NCBI RefSeq assembly: GCF_900114605.1
Contig: NZ_FOTP01000009.1
Coordinates: 124,001-188,000 of the forward strand
Direction: 5' to 3'
Source: Bradyrhizobium sp. NFR13
GTDB lineage: Bacteria; Pseudomonadota; Alphaproteobacteria; Rhizobiales; Xanthobacteraceae
DNA length: 64,000 nt
How positions within the stretch are numbered: position 1 is the stretch's first letter; each line of letters begins with the position of its first letter. Under the pieces are notes generated by a model, which saw only the letters and a program-made list of their open reading frames with translations, did not search any database and was not told the DNA's origin. A program made the position numbers and the translations under genes. Below are positions 31,801 through 36,178 of the stretch, piece after piece.

Positions 31801-32655
31801 TCACTCGTTAACGGTGGTATCGGGGCGCCAGGTCAGCAGCCGGTTCTCGATCACGGTCAAAATCCATTCGGCCAGCAGCGCCACGATCGCAATGACGATC
31901 ATCGCCGCGAACACGCCGTTGGAATCGAACGAGCCTTGTGCGGTCGCGATCAGCAGGCCCATGCCTTCGCGAGCGCCGAGGAATTCGCCGACGATGGCGC
32001 CGACCAGCGCGAAGCCGAACGACACATGGAGGCTAGCGAGAATCCAGGACAGTGCCGAGGGCAGCACCACCGCGCGCGTCATCTGCCAATTGCTGGCGCC
32101 GAGGATGCGCGCATTCGCGATCAGGTTCTTGTCGGCTTCGCGCACGCCCTGGAAGGCGTTGGCGAATACCACGAAGAACACCATCACGACGGCAAGCGCG
32201 ATCTTCGATGCCGCGCCGAGGCCGAGGGCCACGATGAAGATCGAGCCGAGCACGACGCGGGGGATCGAGTTTGCGACCTTGATGTAGATCGAGAACACGT
32301 CTGACAGGAGCTGGTTACGGCCCAGCGCGATGCCGCACAGGATGCCCATGGCCGAGCCGATCAGGAAGCCGGCGCCGGCCTCATAGATCGTCACCCAGAT
32401 CTGCATCCATAGCGGCCCGATCGAGGTGCCATTCTCGGTCCAGTCAATCAGCTTGGTGACGATGCCGGACGGCTGGCCAAAGAAGAACGGATCGATCGCG
32501 CCGAGACGGACGCCGAATTCCCAGCCGCCGATCAGGACCACGAGAACGGCAAGCCGCAGTGCCAGCACGAGGCGCTGATGGCGGCGCATGCGCTGCACGG
32601 CGGTTTCGATACGGCCATCGGCGGCGAGGGGGGCGGAGACGGTTGTTTCGGTCAT
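31801..32655 (-). CDS. ABC transporter permease (TauC/SsuC type)
   Basis: A 284-residue inner-membrane permease of the nitrate/sulfonate/taurine importer family, with about six hydrophobic segments. The EAA-type loop contacting the ATPase reads EADKNLIANARILGASNWQMTRAVVLPSAL. The ATG follows the ATPase stop by 1 nt, so translation is coupled. It is the last gene of the SBP-ATPase-permease operon. Substrate cannot be told from sequence; sulfonates, aromatics or pyrimidine precursors are known for this family. Confidence 0.92.
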   Translation of the reverse strand: MTETTVSAPLAADGRIETAVQRMRRHQRLVLALRLAVLVVLIGGWEFGVRLGAIDPFFFGQPSGIVTKLIDWTENGTSIGPLWMQIWVTIYEAGAGFLIGSAMGILCGIALGRNQLLSDVFSIYIKVANSIPRVVLGSIFIVALGLGAASKIALAVVMVFFVVFANAFQGVREADKNLIANARILGASNWQMTRAVVLPSALSWILASLHVSFGFALVGAIVGEFLGAREGMGLLIATAQGSFDSNGVFAAMIVIAIVALLAEWILTVIENRLLTWRPDTTVNE

Positions 32656-32656
32656 T

Positions 32657-33460
32657 TTAGTGTCCCGCTCGCGCGCGCAACACTTCCTCGCGCAGGTCGT
32701 CGGAGATCTTTCGCGCAATCGCGATGAAACGTTCGTCGTAGCGCAACGTCGCGACATCTCGCGGACGCGGCAGGTCGATCGTGTGGACGGACTTTACCCG
32801 TGCCGGGCGCGTGGTCAGCACGGCAACGCGATCGGCGAGCAGGATCGCTTCGTCGAGATCATGCGTCACGAATAGCACCGCGGATTTCGCCTGCGCCCAC
32901 AGTTGCAGCAATTCTTCCTGCATCAACTCCCTGGTCTGCACGTCGAGCGCGGAGAACGGCTCGTCCATCAGGAGCACCTGGGGATTGTTGATGAAGGTCT
33001 GCGCCAGCGCCACGCGCTTGCGCATGCCGCCGGAGAGCTGATGCGGATGGTGATGTTCGAAGCCCTTGAGGCCAACACGCGTGATCCAGTCGCGCGCCTC
33101 GGTTTCCGCCTTGTCTTTCGGGACACCGCGAAACAACGGCCCGGCCATGACATTGCCGAGCACGTCGCGCCACGGAAACACCGCGTCCTGCTGGAACACG
33201 AAGCCGACGCGGCGATCGACGCCGGTGACCGGCGCGTCGAACAATGTGACCTCGCCGCCTTGCGGACGGGCGAGGCCGGCGATCAGCCCCAGGGTCGTCG
33301 ACTTGCCGCAGCCCGTCGGGCCCACCACGGCCATGAATTCACCGGGCGCGATGGTGAGGTCGAAATCCTCCAGCGCGGAGAGAACGTCACCCGAAGGCGT
33401 GACGAAGCGGCGCGCGACGTTCTTCAGCGCGACGGCGGAGGGCGATGCAATTGCTGACAT
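32657..33460 (-). CDS. ABC transporter ATP-binding protein (TauB/SsuB type)
   Basis: A 267-residue importer ATPase. Walker A is VVGPTGCGKSTT, the Q loop is FVFQQDAVFPWRDV, the signature is QLSGGMRKRVALAQ, Walker B is VLLMDEPFSALD, and the switch His is in LFVTHDLDEA. Length and the AVFPWR-x-V motif place it in the TauB/SsuB group. It lies 2 nt after the substrate-binding protein gene and 1 nt before the permease gene, which makes a compact operon. Confidence 0.95.
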   Translation of the reverse strand: MSAIASPSAVALKNVARRFVTPSGDVLSALEDFDLTIAPGEFMAVVGPTGCGKSTTLGLIAGLARPQGGEVTLFDAPVTGVDRRVGFVFQQDAVFPWRDVLGNVMAGPLFRGVPKDKAETEARDWITRVGLKGFEHHHPHQLSGGMRKRVALAQTFINNPQVLLMDEPFSALDVQTRELMQEELLQLWAQAKSAVLFVTHDLDEAILLADRVAVLTTRPARVKSVHTIDLPRPRDVATLRYDERFIAIARKISDDLREEVLRARAGH

Positions 33461-33462
33461 GC

Positions 33463-34473
33463 TCAGTTCGTCGCGTTGGCTTTGACCACGAAATCCGTGG
33501 TGTAGGTCTTGGCGAGGTCAATGGTCTTGCCCTTGAGGTTGGGCGAGAAGCTGTTCAGCACACTCAGCACCGACTCCGGTGCACCAGCAGGCATCATGCC
33601 GTCCACGGAGTATTGCGGCTTGCCTTCTTTCAGGCCCTGCACATAGAGGTCGAGTTCGCCGGCATAATAGTCCTTCGGCATCTGCGCAGCGATTTCTTCC
33701 GGCGAGTGGCTGTTCATCCACTTCAACGTCTTCACGAAGGCATTGACGACCTTCTGTGCCGTCTCCTTGTTCGCTTCCATCCAGGCGCGGTCCATATAGA
33801 GACACGCAGCCGGATAATCGCCGCCAAGCGCAGCGCGGGTGCTTTCCGGCGTCCGCAAATCGATGCCGACTTTTGCCGTGCCGTTCTTGACCGCGCGTGC
33901 CACTGTTGGCTCCGTGGTCATGCCGGAGACGATCTTGCCCTGCTGCATGGAAGCCAGGAACGTATCGCCGGCACCGACCGGCACCAACGTGTAGTCCTGC
34001 ATCTTCAGTCCGGCCTTGGCGGCGAGCGCGCGGGTCAGGAAGTCCGTGGCAGAGCCGAGGCCGGTGACGCCGAGCGCCTGACCCTTCCAGTTGGCGGGAT
34101 CCTTCAGTCTGTCCGCATCGGCGGCTTTCACCAGCACGACTTCGCCAGGCGCGACGGCGAATTGCACCACCGAGGTAATGAACTTGCCCTTGGACTGCAG
34201 GTCGATGGTGTGATCGTAGAAGCCGACCACGCCTTGCACTTCGCGCGCGAGCAGGGCGGTCGCCGCCTGCGAGCCGGAGGTCGAGTTGAAGAGTTCGACG
34301 TCGAGCCCCTGTTCCTTGAAGAAGCCGAGCTGCGCCGCGAGTTTCGCCGGCAGATAGATCTGCTTGTCGATACCGCCAACCATGATCTTGATCGGTGTTT
34401 GCGCCGCAGCGGGGGCTGCAAGTGCAGCGGCGAGTGATACAGCCGCAATGGCTGCGGCGAAGAATTTGCGCAT
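33463..34473 (-). CDS. ABC transporter substrate-binding protein (NMT1/SsuA-like)
   Basis: A 336-residue periplasmic binding protein. The signal peptide MRKFFAAAIAAVSLAAALAAPAAA ends at AQTPIKIMVGG. The domain is NMT1/THI5-like (KQIYLPAKLAAQLGFFKEQGLDVELFNSTSGSQAATALLAREVQ), the class that binds sulfonates, taurine, nitrate or thiamine precursors. CAGGAAA precedes the ATG. First gene of the importer operon. The proximity of the thi operon is about 11 kb and is not evidence for pyrimidine uptake. Confidence 0.92.
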   Translation of the reverse strand: MRKFFAAAIAAVSLAAALAAPAAAQTPIKIMVGGIDKQIYLPAKLAAQLGFFKEQGLDVELFNSTSGSQAATALLAREVQGVVGFYDHTIDLQSKGKFITSVVQFAVAPGEVVLVKAADADRLKDPANWKGQALGVTGLGSATDFLTRALAAKAGLKMQDYTLVPVGAGDTFLASMQQGKIVSGMTTEPTVARAVKNGTAKVGIDLRTPESTRAALGGDYPAACLYMDRAWMEANKETAQKVVNAFVKTLKWMNSHSPEEIAAQMPKDYYAGELDLYVQGLKEGKPQYSVDGMMPAGAPESVLSVLNSFSPNLKGKTIDLAKTYTTDFVVKANATN

Positions 34474-34614
34474 TGGCGTTTCCTGACTTCTAAATTCGGC
34501 GCTGGTCTACTGCGCGGGGCGGTTGTCCCGGCCGATGCGCAAGCGCTCGCAACGGGGGCATCAGGCCCCGGCCTGCGTCAAACTGTCAATCGGCTATTGG
34601 AAGGTCACAACAGC

Positions 34615-34643
34615 AAAAAGCGCCCGCTCGGGAGAGCGGACGC
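34615..34643 (-). terminator. intrinsic terminator of the 27-residue peptide gene
   Basis: Read on the minus strand, GCGTCCGCTC, a TCCC loop, GAGCGGGCGC and then TTTTTGCTG make a strong terminator. It ends 28 nt after the peptide's stop codon. Confidence 0.88.
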
Positions 34644-34670
34644 CGTGCGAAAGCTTCATGGGTTGAGTCT

Positions 34671-34754
34671 CTACAGCACGCCCAATACGATAGCGCCGAC
34701 GAAGGCGATTGCCGCATAGGCGATCACAACGCTCAGTTGACCGGACATGGTCAT
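34671..34754 (-). CDS. 27-residue predicted membrane peptide with stress promoter
   Basis: A micro-ORF of 27 codons starting MTMSGQLSVVIAYA and ending VGAIVLGVL. After a short polar N-terminus it is one continuous hydrophobic segment, so a single-pass membrane peptide is likely. A perfect Shine-Dalgarno (GGGAGG, 6 nt before the ATG), an EcfG-type promoter 34 nt upstream and a strong terminator downstream frame it as a complete transcription unit. It is too short for routine ORF calling. Function is unknown; stress-induced single-pass peptides often regulate membrane enzymes or transporters. A second in-frame ATG (34748) could also be used. Confidence 0.7.
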   Translation of the reverse strand: MTMSGQLSVVIAYAAIAFVGAIVLGVL

Positions 34755-34787
34755 GGGAACCCTCCCTTTGACGTTGTCGCGCGGAGT

Positions 34788-34812
34788 AACGCGAAAGCCG
34801 GCGGTCCGTTCC
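34788..34812 (-). promoter_or_regulatory. EcfG-type general stress promoter
   Basis: On the minus strand GGAAC (34812-34808), exactly 16 nt, then CGTT (34791-34788) match the EcfG consensus. The expected start of transcription leaves a leader of about 25 nt before the 27-codon ORF. Confidence 0.75.
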
Positions 34813-34936: not shown

Positions 34937-36178
34937 ATGACGCGCAGAGTTCGTTTGTATCTCGTCGGCTCCGTCGTCCTTGTATCGCTTGCGGGTTGCG
35001 GACGCGGTCTGTTTCAGACCCAGGAACGTGAGCCATGGCGTGCCGAGGCAGAAGTCGCATGTCTCAAATCCGGCACGGTGAAAGAGGGCGCTGATCTCGT
35101 TCGGATCAACCCGATTTCCGGGCCCGGTGTCTGCGGCGCAGAATTTCCCTTGAAGGTGGCGGCGCTCGGCGAGGCCAGCATCAGCTACGGTTTTGCCGAT
35201 GAAAGTTTGCGGCCACCTGGCGGCATCGGCGGTGCAAGCCAGCCGCGTTGGCCGGTCCAGCAGCAGCCACAGACCATGGCGCGCCCCGCCAGCAGCTATC
35301 CGAATTCGTATCCGCAAGCCGCGCCGCAGCAGCCGTCCTATGGCGGCTCATCTTACGGCGGCGCTGCCAATAACGGGCCGATCTCGCTGAACGCGCCGGG
35401 CGTGCCGCCGGACAATGAAGACGAAATCGAATTGCCGCCGGAAGGCTCGCCGCAGGCGATACCGGCACAGCAGCCGCAGCCGCGCGCGCCTTACGGACGC
35501 TATAGTTCAGGTGTGCAGCAGAGCCAGCCGCCGCAGGATTATGCGCCGCAGCGTCTTGGCCCCGGGCCAGGTAATGTTACGGGCTCGGTCGGCCCGGTCG
35601 CCGTGAAGCCGGTGGCGACGCTGGCTTGTCCGATCGTCTCGGCACTCGACAAGTGGCTCGCTGAGTCCGTGCAGCCGGCGGCGATGCGCTGGTTCGGCGT
35701 CCGTGTCGCCGAGATCAAGCAGATCTCCGCTTATTCGTGCCGCGGCATGAACGGCAATTCGCGCGCGCATATCTCCGAACATGCATTCGGTAACGCGCTC
35801 GATATCTCCGCCTTCGTCCTCGCCGATGGTCGCAGCGTCTCGGTGAAGGCAGGCTGGAAGGGCATGCCGGAAGAGCAGGGCTTTCTGCGCGACATCCAGG
35901 GCGGCGCGTGCCAGGTCTTCAACACCGTGCTGGCGCCGGGCTCGAACGTCTATCACTACGATCACATTCACGTGGATCTGATGCGCCGGCCGAAACGCCC
36001 GGTGATCTGCCAGCCGGCTGCCGTGTCGGGCGAGGAGATTGCCGCGCGCGCGCAGAGCCGCAATCCCTATGCCAGCCGCAATAATGACTATGGCGGCGTG
36101 ACCGGCTCGATCGGCCGCACGGCGAAGAAGTCCACGCGCAAATCGCCTGACGACGAGGACTTCTACGAGAACGAATAA
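34937..36178 (+). CDS. extensin-like family lipoprotein (M15-like C-terminal domain)
   Basis: A 413-residue envelope protein. The N-terminus MTRRVRLYLVGSVVLVSLAGC ends in a lipobox, so it is probably a lipoprotein. A long Pro/Gln/Gly/Tyr-rich linker (about 95-215) precedes the extensin-like C-terminal domain. That domain contains AYSCRGMNGNSRAHISEHAFGNALDISAF and YHYDHIHVDLM, a His/Asp/His set resembling the zinc site of M15/LAS peptidases. It may therefore cut or bind peptidoglycan; that is inference. Conserved Cys occur on both sides of the domain. Its stop lies 10 nt from the convergent TetR gene. Confidence 0.9.
   Translation: MTRRVRLYLVGSVVLVSLAGCGRGLFQTQEREPWRAEAEVACLKSGTVKEGADLVRINPISGPGVCGAEFPLKVAALGEASISYGFADESLRPPGGIGGASQPRWPVQQQPQTMARPASSYPNSYPQAAPQQPSYGGSSYGGAANNGPISLNAPGVPPDNEDEIELPPEGSPQAIPAQQPQPRAPYGRYSSGVQQSQPPQDYAPQRLGPGPGNVTGSVGPVAVKPVATLACPIVSALDKWLAESVQPAAMRWFGVRVAEIKQISAYSCRGMNGNSRAHISEHAFGNALDISAFVLADGRSVSVKAGWKGMPEEQGFLRDIQGGACQVFNTVLAPGSNVYHYDHIHVDLMRRPKRPVICQPAAVSGEEIAARAQSRNPYASRNNDYGGVTGSIGRTAKKSTRKSPDDEDFYENE

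Follow-up and report, generated by a model that had tools for sequence, protein, structure and literature searches.

KdpF, CydX and MgtS are small single-pass membrane regulators. To our knowledge, few membrane micropeptides with a known function have been described in the Alphaproteobacteria. The peptide family described here resembles KdpF, CydX and MgtS in size and in having one hydrophobic helix, and it differs from them in that it gave no convincing match and does not lie beside a membrane-complex operon. According to the excerpts of PMC10117765 that were available, SEP6 of S. meliloti has <30 aa and a predicted transmembrane helix, all or most of the tagged SEP6 was detected in the P100 pellet, which holds ribosomes and membranes, and its sORF is conserved in Hyphomicrobiales. 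By description and not by sequence, SEP6 would thus fit the family in size, pellet fraction and conservation.

The window, by which we mean the whole stretch of 64,000 nucleotides that was analysed, belongs to a 6.2 Mb genome whose genus we call Tardiphaga-type by inference. Of the named relatives scanned, Tardiphaga robiniae was the closest, with a peptide 93% identical to that of the window. The earlier note had claimed a complete unit of promoter, Shine-Dalgarno, ORF and terminator, in that order on the minus strand of 34615..34812. Its coordinates were right, and GGAAC-N16-CGTT, the Shine-Dalgarno, the 27-codon ORF and the terminator can all be read on the minus strand from 34812 to 34609, as listed here together with the neighbouring genes.

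34808..34812, minus strand: EcfG-type −35 element GGAAC, exact in 16/17 genus loci at a near-constant position
34788..34791, minus strand: EcfG-type −10 element CGTT, spacer 16, from the sequence and conservation in the genus
34755..34781, minus strand: predicted 5′ untranslated leader, its putative start about 7 nt after CGTT
34761..34766, minus strand: Shine-Dalgarno GGGAGG, 6 nt before the ATG, from the sequence
34671..34754, minus strand: 27-codon ORF MTMSGQLSVVIAYAAIAFVGAIVLGVL plus TAG, predicted single-pass membrane micropeptide, ATG at 34754
34619..34644, minus strand: intrinsic terminator stem-loop of 11 pairs, 8 of them G-C, followed by TTTTGCTGTT
34609..34618, minus strand: T-rich terminator tail, from the sequence
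34937..36178, plus strand: extensin-like gene (PF06904), divergent neighbour, context only
31801-34473, same strand as the unit and downstream of it: operon of NMT1-type substrate-binding protein, ABC ATPase and permease

With these parts the gene would be transcribed as its own short mRNA, running from the predicted promoter through the Shine-Dalgarno and the ORF to the terminator. The peptide MTMSGQLSVVIAYAAIAFVGAIVLGVL had been overlooked by gene callers. It has 27 aa, a GRAVY of 1.97 and a best 19-residue hydropathy of 2.73, and would form mostly one hydrophobic helix, as in single-pass membrane micropeptides. Database searches gave it no name. The window peptide had no match above the cut-off in Pfam and none in NCBIfam. 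With 55 family members the best E in Pfam was 0.036, and with 50 members the best E in NCBIfam was 0.0066, in both cases among scattered weak matches to unrelated families; the NCBIfam matches included Psb35 (8/50 members, best 0.016) and MgtS (1/50 members, E 0.33). No PDB chain was matched by the family profile. A tblastn search of plasmid and phage collections with a hand-made consensus found nothing, although a peptide of this kind may be masked by the low-complexity filter of BLAST. None of four fragments of family sequence was printed anywhere in the full-text literature searched. As judged from the listing, the matches listed for PhaR with small proteins held nothing relevant, and those for alphaproteobacterial small proteins were all unrelated. 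The search for SEP6 returned only PMC10117765.

The earlier note had named conservation of the reading frame across relatives as the check on its ORF, and the frame turned out to be kept throughout the order and beyond. The ORF was present in 17/18 genomes of the window's genus, and in 15 of these 17 there was a single match per genome. A second match in the window's own genome, G000:C16:143066-143134 (L209, L242), falls within a longer reading frame and was excluded from the count; that frame ends in a similar hydrophobic stretch and is probably unrelated. In 61 mixed relatives the window peptide was matched in 31 genomes at E ≤ 1, and in 24 of these E was below 0.19. The reversed peptide reached E ≤ 1 in four genomes, with a best value of 0.19 and always within frames of at least 173 aa. 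A 27-member profile then matched 163/297 genomes of the order at E ≤ 0.1, the threshold by which these genomes are counted, in 70/117 genera; a subset of the loci was read individually. Among 96 order loci that were read, 94 had 25–31 codons and 74 had exactly 27, the exceptions being L192 (17 codons) and L022 (32). A Shine-Dalgarno-like site precedes the chosen starts in these 96 loci, under a start rule that favours such sites. The peptide was also found patchily in other alphaproteobacterial orders (nine peptides, six genera), and one weak match outside the Alphaproteobacteria (G701) is a search score only. The class matches L204, L208 and L238 were dropped, since they were read as parts of longer proteins.

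The codon pattern points the same way. In 78 mostly Bradyrhizobium loci the frame of the ORF had a pN/pS of 0.27, and the two alternative frames gave 1.14 and 3.8. Four further groups outside the window's genus gave 0.07, 0.19, 0.20 and 0.34, and in three of them, the ones computed, the other two frames exceeded 1. The pattern was weaker in the window's genus, with 0.56 and 0.50 in the ORF frame, the only one computed there. For the upstream and downstream signals we used 67 representatives, one per genus and with at least 200 nt upstream, drawn from the 96 order loci; the window's genus is outside the 67 and was counted apart. Terminators lay within 120 nt in 22/67 representatives against 0.4 expected from shuffles. 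The spread and the codon pattern take the ORF beyond chance, and the unit is almost certainly a real protein gene.

GGAAC-N16-CGTT was exact in 16/17 loci of the window's genus, always between −56 and −61 although the spacers have diverged, and the remaining locus had one mismatch at −66. These 17 loci represent 16 genomes, and two of the loci, L013 and L014, are nearly identical; L005, in which the upstream region was cut off, and L019, which was spurious, were left out of the count. Genome-wide, GGAAC-N16/17-CGTT occurred 118 times compared to 119 for a backward control, and because the motif alone is at chance density, the weight of the promoter rests on its conservation. In the same genome NepR is encoded ahead of a sigma-70 region 2 protein that is probably EcfG, as read from its place and a PhyR_sigma2-like match. 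A search for GGAA-N-YGTT before this NepR/sigma operon found no site, and by eye GGAAC-N16-CATT is present there. Conservation in the genus and the NepR-EcfG operon support the EcfG-type promoter of the earlier note. The exact motif was present in 11/80 named loci (a Bradyrhizobium-rich set) and absent in 69/80. It was found in 5/67 representatives, with ~0.1 expected from shuffles. The genus loci resemble the EcfG general-stress regulon of Alphaproteobacteria by carrying GGAAC-N16-CGTT at a near-constant place, in contrast to the 62/67 representatives outside the genus that lack the exact site.

An alternative is that GGAAC-N16-CGTT is not a promoter in use and that another sigma factor transcribes the gene. 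The chance density of the motif and the 69 named loci without it would fit this explanation, but both elements are kept near-fixed in 16 of the 17 genus loci while the spacer between them changes, and we consider it unlikely. EcfG control in the window's genus is, as read from this conservation, the likely state of affairs, and with such a promoter the gene should be under the PhyR-NepR-EcfG cascade. Control of the EcfG type seems confined to part of the family, and the commoner upstream site is of PhaR type.

The PhaR consensus of Bradyrhizobium diazoefficiens is TGCRNYGCASMA, as given in an excerpt of PMC6201568. In the 150 nt before the start, 21/67 representatives had this sequence in exact form and 42/67 (~3 expected) had it with at most one mismatch, spanning 24/29 families. 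Over all 96 order loci it was present at ≤1 mismatch in 56. The controls were low throughout, with 0.1% exact and 4.4% at ≤1 mismatch in dinucleotide shuffles, 0.2% and 5.2% in 3,483 flank windows, and 1.1% and 5% in 180 regions upstream of other ORFs. A second motif, that of S. meliloti PhaR as given in an excerpt of PMC12542648, had 5 exact and 9 one-mismatch occurrences among the 67, compared to 0.1% and 0.8%. When words upstream of the ORF were ranked de novo, GCACTGC and GCAGTGCA came first among the 7- and 8-mers, and the −10-like AGTCTA and A/T-rich words came first among the 6-mers.

Of the 42 boxes, only 28 were at −78 to −91, and the others were further upstream. When the 42 loci were aligned on the box, taking the one near −87 if a locus had several candidates, two further elements emerged that had not been selected for: CTT at +21 to +23 (26, 33 and 38 of 42), and, less strictly kept, TANNNT at +45 to +50 (26, 22 and 26 of 42). 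They look like a −35 and a −10 element at a fixed distance from the box. The box had been spotted by eye in the order loci before testing, and the peptides of other orders served as a later test. In that set 8/9 peptides, in 5/6 genera, had the box. The sole exception was L200, and in L202 the best-scoring box was at −147, with another near −85 by eye.

The box is not universal. It was missing in 25/67 representatives, and in 20 further order loci, apart from the 67, it was present at ≤1 mismatch in four, once at −142. The named, mostly Bradyrhizobium loci had it at ≤1 mismatch in 6/79, no more than chance, and these Bradyrhizobium-rich loci mostly have neither an EcfG-type nor a PhaR-type motif. 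In the same set (L033-L112), CTGACTTT was present upstream in 62/79 and TGTTAAC in 62/79, which we read as a promoter of unassigned type. No PhaR site was found in the window's own copy, where the best match had three mismatches, and in the genus only L016 (−121) and L017 (−95) of the 17 loci carried a box. The family is like the PhaR (AniA) regulon in having a PhaR-type site upstream in 42 of the 67 representatives, and the window copy differs in being without such a site. In the relatives that bear the box, PhaR control is quite probable, and a PhaR-type site upstream should make the gene responsive, via PhaR, to polyhydroxybutyrate. With the box upstream of the −35 element, either repression or activation is possible.

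A relative's transcript appears to have been catalogued as an sRNA, with its coding reading overlooked. The Atu_C9 RNA was reportedly detected by Wilms et al. 2012. At L188:2522-2710, the Rfam family RF02503, "Rhizobiales sRNA Atu_C9", covers the transcript of the micropeptide gene with 139.6 bits, the gathering score being 40. L188 is probably Rhizobiaceae-type, and genus g82 is of the same family; of four g82 loci, three matched RF02503 below the gathering score and one not at all. RF02503 also lay over the micropeptide transcript at L194, L163 and L164. The RF02503 consensus itself contains a Shine-Dalgarno-like AGGAGG followed by 25 codons for MGLTQSLNALLVSAAFAFVLSMLFI, a family member, and then a terminator hairpin. 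Compared with a family profile that excluded the L188 sequence and included one g82 member, MGLTQSLNALLVSAAFAFVLSMLFI matched with a probability of 96% and an E of 5e-9. In L188 the 5′ end of the Atu_C9 model is 21 nt before the ATG and 5 nt after TATTAT; this is an alignment end and not a mapped start. Despite these likenesses, RF02503 differs in being filed as a Rhizobiales sRNA and in that its model misses the window copy. An excerpt of PMC5471319 cites Wilms et al. 2012 for Atu_C9, and three Agrobacterium papers lacked the C9 phrases tried.

The transcript might have a dual function, with the short RNA base-pairing as an sRNA, the role under which RF02503 is catalogued, while encoding the peptide. 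This explanation draws on the L188 match and on the three g82 loci below gathering. However, RF02503 had no match in the window region at E ≤ 1, and in 16 additional loci it did not match at the position of the peptide at E ≤ 0.5, though the peptide was recognisable there; the base pairs of the model belong to the terminator and to the region where the ORF begins. A second role as an sRNA is rather improbable.

The occurrence of the peptide was next compared to that of the PHB regulator and synthase families. PhaR (PF07879) was present in 257/297 order genomes, in 162/163 with the peptide and in 95/134 without it, and 39 genomes had neither. PhaC (PF07167) was present in 249 order genomes and in 154/163 with the peptide; the nine peptide genomes without PhaC belong to two genera. 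The one peptide genome without a PhaR match, G202:C65:77-157 (L211), also lacked a PhaC match. These counts are not independent because the genomes are related, and the co-occurrence of PhaR and the peptide could have arisen through shared ancestry. In seven PhaC-less g112 genomes the box was missing from its usual place, while the peptide was kept and was identical in all seven; in one of them, L212, a one-mismatch match to the box was at −142. Where the box was expected, these seven genomes (L212-L218) have in common a different conserved stretch, GGTTGAAACGTWCTGTTT. The box was also absent from L166, a PhaC-positive g112 locus, and from 10/13 PhaC-positive loci of other genera in the 20-locus set, and its absence in g112 is not proof that loss of PhaC caused it.

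These observations bear on the proposal that the peptide acts at the PHB granule, or between granule and membrane, as a phasin-like helper. The PhaR-type box in 42 of 67 genera, PhaC in 154 of the 163 peptide genomes and the absence of the box from its usual place in the seven PhaC-less genomes would agree with such a role. In contrast, these same genomes keep an identical peptide, they are not the only ones to have lost the box, and the sequence resembles a membrane-spanning helix and not an amphipathic one. We regard a granule peptide as improbable and retain the reading of an inner-membrane micropeptide.

The neighbourhood of the gene has been partly maintained. An extensin-like gene is upstream on the opposite strand in 20/67 genera (10 families), as in the window. 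When downstream genes on the opposite strand were clustered, one cluster (cobalamin-dependent methionine synthase) covered 25 genera of 11 families and another (methylenetetrahydrofolate reductase) 10 genera of six families. The eight genes listed for each cluster were all downstream and convergent, and one protein per cluster was identified with Pfam. The window has the NMT1-type ABC operon at this downstream place instead. Synteny common to many loci, together with flanks that differ at others, points to a single self-contained gene of old origin. No membrane-complex operon adjoins it that would name a partner. A sul1 riboswitch match (RF03058) was present near one locus, at L165:1017-1072 on the minus strand.

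Type I toxins are short hydrophobic peptides of similar length, and the window peptide resembles them in both length and hydrophobicity. A toxin-like peptide is nevertheless very unlikely, as most ORF-bearing genomes of the genus had one match (15 of 17), the neighbours are syntenic across families and the Shine-Dalgarno is of an ordinary strong type; in addition, no Rfam RNA was found at the window locus, a search limited to described families, from which an undescribed antisense RNA would escape. A purely regulatory RNA with an incidental ORF, as the sRNA catalogue entry and the short, terminator-ended transcript might suggest, is hardly credible given the mainly synonymous change in the ORF frame in five groups and the maintained ORF length.

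The reading that we favour, with moderate confidence, is a single-pass inner-membrane micropeptide of the carbon-storage and stress state, whose control was switched from PhaR to EcfG in the window's lineage. The gene would be vertically inherited and encode a peptide of 25–31 residues in the order of rhizobia and relatives, with a patchy presence in other orders. In most sampled genera a PhaR-type site lies just upstream of a housekeeping-type promoter, and in the window's genus, where the PhaR-type site is nearly always missing, an EcfG-type general-stress promoter is found instead. Either control would place synthesis of the peptide at times of limited growth, with carbon going into storage or stress setting in.

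Insertion of the peptide into the membrane is very likely. Across 55 members residues A15, F16, F18, A21, I22 and G25 were strongly conserved, a K or R was present at residue 5 in 30 and at residue 6 in 25, and an N at residue 8 in 33. Given that many relatives have a K or R at position 5 or 6, the peptide would insert as one helix with its N-terminus inside; the window peptide is without any K/R, and for this reason its own topology is not predicted by charge. The conserved small-residue face (A14/A15, F18, A21, G25) may pack against a membrane protein or another copy of the peptide and thereby tune the partner. Helix-face periodicity was weak and not significant (permutation p 0.10), and action through a membrane partner is a tentative proposal.

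The results add a conserved membrane micropeptide family that sequence evidence links with two named global regulators. They also suggest that what is catalogued as an sRNA is an mRNA. A broader view, which we put forward as a possibility short of an even chance, is that unnamed PHB-responsive micropeptides across the class connect the carbon state sensed by PhaR to a membrane complex, that promoter replacement rewired some lineages to general stress, and that one Rfam sRNA is a misfiled mRNA. The family also offers a case of promoter switching, with a PhaR-type site in many lineages and an EcfG-type site in one. In two family-level loci, L024 and L027, an exact GGAAC-N16/17-CGTT at about −90 to −65 has a PhaR-type box within its spacer, an arrangement that would let PhaR block the use of the EcfG promoter.
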